The notes beneath the pieces are model-generated. The model had not been told where the DNA came from and did no database searches. It saw only the letters and a program-made list of their open reading frames with translations. Positions 3,524-3,931 of a stretch of 10,151 nt of DNA are shown in pieces. How positions within the stretch are numbered: the first letter of the stretch is position 1; every line of letters starts with the position of its first letter. The position numbers were made by a program, and so were the translations under genes. Origin of the DNA: Ignavibacteria bacterium (GTDB taxonomy: Bacteria; Bacteroidota; Ignavibacteria; UBA10030; SZUA-254); assembly GCA_005877655.1 (NCBI GenBank), contig VBOC01000156.1:1-10151 (forward strand), given 5' to 3'.

Positions 3524-3744
3524 TCAATCTCCAACCTTCTTCTGGTTCAATTGTTTTTGAATCTCTCGCAGCGCTTCGAGGTCCGTCTTGTCTTTTTCAC
3601 GACCCGCGGCTTTCTTCATTTTGAGAAGATATCGATACCTTGAGTCATCCTGACGTAGCCGTAGGCAGGAAAGGCCCAAGCGCCAATCACGAGGAATTTG
3701 ACGTCAGAGGCGAGTAACGATCGCAGGAGTCTTTGAATATCCAT
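3524..3744 (-). pseudogene. Internally deleted nucleotidyltransferase (AbiEii/DUF6036-like) remnant
   Basis: Read in two frames, the DNA shows both ends of a nucleotidyltransferase. From an ATG at 3744 a 42-residue frame to 3616 contains [19 protein letters not shown] and TQGIDIF. These resemble the family's N-terminal GG(W/S) and G-D-I/L-D-I motifs. A second frame, shifted by one and readable from about 3634 to the TGA at 3524-3526, gives LLKMKKAAGREKDKTDLEAL. This matches the family's C-terminal K-x-A-x-GR-x-KD-x-x-D-x-x-x-L pattern. The middle, roughly 80-100 residues by family expectation, is missing, and the join near 3625-3635 is out of frame. Two conserved residues are also altered: Gly-Ala replaces Gly-Gly, and the first Asp of the Asp-x-Asp pair is Gly, so catalysis is doubly lost. 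It overlaps the end of the small gene before it by 41 bases and abuts gyrA. Family assignment is from motif memory. Confidence 0.72.
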
Positions 3745-3931
3745 TGCGACCGATTAATTCAAGTCCGGCCTCGACAAGCTGCTGCATCGCTTCATAACGC
3801 TCCACAGGGCTGAGAGAAAGCTGAAATTCAATTTCAAACTCCAGCTCCTTCCTTGGATCGTCATGATCCAGAATGAGAATCCGCGCCCTCTTTTTAACCG
3901 TTTTATTCATAATGTCAACCGAGTCCGTCAC
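3704..3931 (-). CDS. Small charged protein between gyrB and gyrA, probable orphaned partner of the nucleotidyltransferase
   Basis: A 75-residue protein with no signal peptide or membrane segment. It is charged and probably helical. It has a [19 protein letters not shown] core, then a helix ([17 protein letters not shown]) and a basic C-terminus ([13 protein letters not shown]). Small proteins of this pattern are often encoded just before a nucleotidyltransferase gene, and the remnant of one begins inside its last 41 bases. The start is a GTG at 3931 that overlaps the gyrB stop as GTGA, which suggests translational coupling. An ATG at residue 8 (3910) is the alternative, but I see no clear ribosome-binding site for it. 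The reading frame is intact while its partner is broken, so it may be a leftover antitoxin-like protein or may serve some other role. Function is not known. Confidence 0.7.

Follow-up and report, generated by a model that had tools for sequence, protein, structure and literature searches.

The DNA analysed here (the window) is a stretch of 10,151 nucleotides, contig VBOC01000156.1 of the Ignavibacteria bacterium draft genome GCA_005877655.1, in which a small open reading frame (ORF) and pieces of a nucleotidyltransferase (NTase) gene lie between the gyrase genes gyrB and gyrA. Along the minus strand, dnaA, dnaN, recF and a short gene come first, followed by gyrB, the small ORF, the NTase pieces, gyrA, another short gene and a PIN-domain gene (Table 1), the names of dnaA, dnaN, recF and the short genes being assigned by eye. 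A sequence-only reading of the window had taken two ORFs and both ends of an NTase between the gyrase genes for a decayed, toxin-antitoxin-style module, and these parts are indeed present at that position.

Table 1. Features of the window discussed in the text.
Feature	Position	Strand	Remarks
Small partner ORF	3704..3931	(-)	75 residues as listed; based on ORF list, alignments and structure model
NTase N-terminal piece	3616..3744	(-)	Match covers the first 40 residues; motif reads G-x-D instead of D-x-D
ORF with NTase C-terminal piece	3524..3679	(-)	Different frame; match starts near 3628
gyrB, with the module at its 3' end	3928..6080	(-)	Broken near 4779: 29 residues missing and frame change
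gyrA, downstream neighbour	893..3523	(-)	Whole
PIN-domain gene	9..660	(-)	VapC-like

An NTase remnant beside a whole small gene

The N-terminal piece is 68% identical to an intact relative over 40 residues (E 1e-17) and is recovered from the genome by a profile of the family (E 2e-16), and the C-terminal piece shows 68% identity to an intact NTase over 25 residues (E 2e-9). The profile match and both pairwise alignments rule out a chance resemblance, and the assignment of both ends to an NTase thus holds. Residues 52-131 of the intact enzyme, about 80 residues of its middle, have no counterpart in the window, where the frame shifts. The first Asp of the catalytic D-x-D motif, invariant in 8 aligned NTases, is Gly in the window copy, which confirms the missing Asp noted earlier and leaves this copy without a complete motif. 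The TGA-ATG contact with gyrA is likewise present, but it belongs to the remnant and not to a working gene. When compared with Pfam, the pieces and the small protein of the window match no model, whereas the NTases of four intact gyrB-linked relatives pass the cut-offs of DUF6036 (4/4) and DUF2204 (3/4), one of them also just passing that of Aminoglyc_resit.

The small partner, in contrast to the enzyme, is whole, as had been claimed. Its GTG start, and with it the four-nucleotide GTGA overlap with gyrB, is probably not real, because in alignments the relatives begin near the residue matching an internal ATG at 3910; judged from these alignments, the gene probably starts at that ATG and encodes 68 residues. 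Seven other proteins match it at E<=5e-11 in a protein database search, the small proteins of the module ranging from 65 to 84 residues across copies, and structure prediction gives two helices.

Whether the enzyme was truly lost or was damaged in the assembly has to be weighed, since the draft is faulty nearby. The only gyrB found is broken in the same manner as the NTase, and this break is most likely an assembly fault because the draft genome, which is 79% complete, yielded no other copy of gyrB. When 91 reference ORFs were matched to a sample of 40 contigs of this genome and the window, eight rows fell in more than one frame, four of them being the window gyrB against four references and the other four being conserved genes, each on a different contig outside the window. 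Conversely, 77 of the genome's own ORFs matched a same-genus genome without any break there, the two multi-frame rows being the window gyrB itself and an apparent second gene copy, and runs of N occur in 15 of the 40 contigs fetched. Because gyrB and other conserved genes are frame-broken and runs of N are frequent, the gap in the NTase could come from a wrong join, so that the absence of the middle residues stands but their biological loss may not. It is quite possible, if somewhat short of probable, that the NTase and gyrB of this organism are whole and that the missing stretches are wrong joins in a gappy draft. A wrong join does not, however, explain the change of Asp to Gly, no N lies beside either junction, and four of the 14 further genomes with the module have lost the NTase as well, among them a genome assembled as one contig, where a frameshift is present. 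The altered motif residue and these losses point to genuine decay.

The address behind gyrB

The small protein is rare (genomes and loci are designated by G and L numbers where they need to be told apart). Its profile matches 12 of 294 genomes of the class and, with more members included, 15 of 391, the window's own genome among them and with one match each; among genomes at least 90% complete the count is 8/337, and in a sample of the phylum 3/395, all three being class members already known. All 15 copies, each checked for its location, lie 3' of gyrB. The subfamily is found only at this place in the genomes searched, and what the sequence-only reading regarded as an unusual insertion point is a recurrent address and not a freak of this genome. 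Full-length versions of the two-gene module are found there in related genomes, the small gene overlapping the NTase in most copies. The module is followed by gyrA in 12 of the 15, while the available stretch ends before any gyrA in G273 and G344; in G333 (L101) the order is gyrB, HicB, HicA, small gene, NTase, ruvC and ruvA (names by eye). Because ruvC and ruvA follow the module in that genome, it is gyrB, rather than gyrA, to which the module is linked. Other genes may stand between gyrB and the module, namely HicB and Fic genes in G150 and a second NTase pair in G377, and the gene order is reversed in G166.

Profile matches to the NTase itself are more widespread, occurring in 92/294 genomes at E up to 1e-10. 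The eight intact gyrB-linked copies in these genomes score 237-265 bits and the broken copy of G180 125 bits, whereas the next match, which does not share a contig with gyrB, scores 116 bits; the distance of the lower-scoring matches from gyrB was not checked one by one. Distant NTases are present on six plasmid records.

The gap between gyrB and gyrA is a place that takes cargo. Among 30 loci fetched by similarity to gyrA, sequences lacking both genes of a gap dropping out, the spacing exceeds 500 nt in 12/27 cases between gyrB and gyrA, compared with 0/24 between dnaN and recF and 0/24 between recF and gyrB. The 12 long gaps hold the NTase module (five), a glycosyltransferase-like gene (five) or a WG-repeat-like gene (two), one gene of each of the latter two kinds having been checked with Pfam and the others by eye. 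Within the window's family (15 genomes), three gyrB-gyrA gaps lie at a contig edge, and the other 12 measure 35-55 nt in five genomes, 247 nt in G136 and at least 407 nt in six. No integrase or recombinase was recognised among the ORFs of the gaps (ten scanned, the rest by eye), the search being confined to the gaps. A second pair of small gene and NTase ('pair B') occurs, by its small gene, in 9/294 genomes and lies behind gyrB in five of the nine. There are hints that pairs of this sort use the end of gyrB as a landing site.

Several gaps were noted in their own right. Glycosyltransferase-like or WG-repeat-like genes occupy gyrB-linked gaps in L005, L006, L007, L024 and L039 and in L012, L022 and L106, and pair B, which differs from the window's pair, stands in the gyrB-gyrA gap in L020, L033, L050, L117 and L158. 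The 247-nt gap of the same-genus genome G136 (L108), where empty gaps measure 35-55 nt, has no recognised gene and is possibly a worn remnant.

One gap holds more than cargo. In G146 (L094, G146:C15:136000-144000, reverse strand 1647-5817), which belongs to the same family as the window, the 4.1 kb between gyrB and gyrA contain four gyrB 3' ends, including the true one, the extra ends matching the true end at 22, 26 and 28 of 30 bases. Each end heads different cargo: one a gene for a pyridoxal phosphate (PLP)-dependent enzyme, one an ORF beginning like the small protein, one an ORF6N gene, the PADLOC defence candidate PDC-S05, and one a gene with an 8xMP match followed by a gene with a DUF5655 match (defence candidate PDC-S18), the 8xMP and DUF5655 matches being below cut-off. 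The extra ends carry 14 base changes in all, 12 of which keep the residue or the stop, as would be expected of the tails of other working gyrB genes rather than of a decaying duplicate. The array is suggestive, as a single case. A peptide scan for second gyrB tails in loci of up to 15 kb yielded, besides G146, only a chance-like 7-of-12 match in L030, and an apparent extra tail between two modules in G109, matching at 20 of 30 bases against a shuffle maximum of 19, was rejected as too weak.

The history of the module differs from that of gyrB. In a Mantel test over 14 genomes and 91 pairs, the gyrB piece of G150 being partial, identities of the small protein and of the gyrB C-terminus are uncorrelated (r 0.07, 604/2000 permutations as high). 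In the gyrB tree G015, G025 and G045 form a single clade (99/97), matching their shared genus, whereas the NTase rejects this clade (approximately unbiased test, p-AU 0.0017), and the small-protein tree places G180 and G344 together (96/94), though they belong to different families. The GC content of the module is lower than that of gyrA in all six loci measured, of 15. The module has apparently been exchanged between lineages and families.

Relatives of the enzyme and its partner

Where they are whole, both genes of the module are under constraint, because the ratio of non-synonymous to synonymous changes (dN/dS) lies at 0.08-0.21 in four of five pairs of the small gene, the remaining pair being saturated, and 0.11 for the NTase in one of three, the other two being saturated. 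The NTase has a fold of the MenT type, and its best match in Foldseek is MenT1, the toxin of the toxin-antitoxin system MenAT1 (PDB 8an4, 8an5), to which it is 24% identical where the two align. MenT1 has tRNA as its substrate. The module differs from MenAT1 in that its small protein matches no known family, that it is locked to gyrB and that its activity is putative. AbiE, whose toxin AbiEii belongs to the same NTase superfamily, gives weak matches: in the four intact relatives AbiEii remains below its Pfam cut-off of 22.5 (13.2-19.1 bits or unlisted), PADLOC gives E 0.0017 at best, with no cut-off stated, and unlike in AbiE no AbiEi-like partner is seen beside the NTases.

Closer in layout are pairs of the same class dispersed elsewhere in the genomes. 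Of 21 such loci looked at, an NTase of the DUF6036/DUF2204 type was recognised in 12, and in 11 of these a gene of 60-85 residues precedes and overlaps it. They differ from the gyrB-linked module in that their NTases reach at most 116 bits on its profile and their small proteins only weakly resemble that of the module, with a probability of 22% (7% for the partner in pair B). Because the overlapping small gene is so frequent among the recognised dispersed loci, the architecture is common and the gyrB address is what sets the module apart.

The small protein has no match in Pfam or PADLOC and a single one in NCBIfam, far below its cut-off, and a structure search with it returned nothing usable. 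Carriage of the small gene by phages or plasmids was also considered and rejected: the small protein of one relative found no match in 72,556 plasmid and 50,697 phage records, and a pattern search of viral contigs gave 107 matches, none of them a relative.

Arrival and function of the module

On balance, and by a modest degree, the evidence favours a putative MenT1-like toxin-antitoxin or defence pair that was acquired on several occasions at the 3' end of gyrB and is transcribed with gyrase, the small protein being the protecting partner. The window would then be a decayed, or mis-assembled, version of a two-gene module in which a small two-helix protein is followed by a MenT1-like NTase. The NTase may add nucleotides to an essential target, most likely tRNA, and be kept in check by the small protein. 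The module would be read through from the gyrB transcript, having arrived by recombination at the gyrB 3' end in a way that leaves gyrB whole, and its loss may begin with breakage of the enzyme. The earlier description as a toxin-antitoxin-style pair agrees with the fold, MenT1 ranking on top, and with the order of decay, while toxicity is an inference. Because the enzyme goes first and the small partner last, genome data by themselves suggest which of the two is protective.

Several results weigh against this reading. The Foldseek E-value for MenT1 is weak (0.018), antibiotic nucleotidyltransferases rank not far behind it, and the small protein matches no known antitoxin in Pfam, NCBIfam, PADLOC or the structure search. 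When 23 gaps were tested for further gyrB ends, only G146 exceeded its shuffles, and the window has no target repeats. With regard to exchange, the genus clade, which was chosen after the identities had been seen, is not rejected when the small protein is taken by itself (p 0.105), and on the tree of that protein four families stay fairly coherent (3 changes, 0/200 shuffles as low). Because the families cluster and the genus clade is not rejected, part of the history of the module may be vertical.

It may also be, as a tentative and on present evidence unlikely extension of repeated acquisition, that a cassette system acting in trans uses the last dozen gyrB codons as its recombination site and stacks genes for toxin-antitoxin systems and phage defence there, every cassette bringing a donor gyrB tail with it. 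Mobile elements can integrate into conserved genes at their 3' ends. The four gyrB ends of G146, with their mostly synonymous differences and different cargo, resemble the outcome of such integration, whereas no integrase is seen in the gap and no second gyrB end is found outside G146 in the gaps and loci scanned. If this were true, the essential gyrB would stay whole and the cargo would be read from the gyrase transcript, with G146 as an array that still shows four tails and the window as its worn counterpart with a single cassette.

A single old entry behind gyrB in an ancestor, followed by vertical inheritance and loss in most lineages, would explain the fixed address as well and agrees with the clustering by family in the small-protein tree. 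It is rather improbable, given the lack of correlation with gyrB identity, the rejection of the genus clade by the NTase and the lower GC content of the module, which is present in only 15/391 genomes and in one of them with the gene order reversed. It is quite improbable that the NTase modifies or senses gyrase and must be made with gyrB, hence the fixed address: the linkage is strict (15/15) and persists where ruvC and ruvA follow or the order is reversed, one such gap (G150) holds a Fic-domain gene and Fic toxins modifying GyrB are known, but the same gap holds unrelated cargo (glycosyltransferase, WG-repeat, HicBA, ORF6N and PLP enzyme genes) and the best fold match, MenT1, acts on tRNA.

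For the favoured toxin-antitoxin or defence pair, it is the exclusive gyrB address together with the signs of exchange that is surprising, the pair itself being a variation on a known type. Toxin-antitoxin and defence pairs that are mobile usually lie dispersed over genomes. A subfamily that is found only behind one essential gene and yet has apparently been exchanged between families would point either to a cassette system aimed at gyrB or to work coupled to gyrase.

Downstream of gyrA, the PIN-domain gene of the window is preceded by a short gene that appears AbrB-like by eye, and the two are possibly a second toxin-antitoxin pair.
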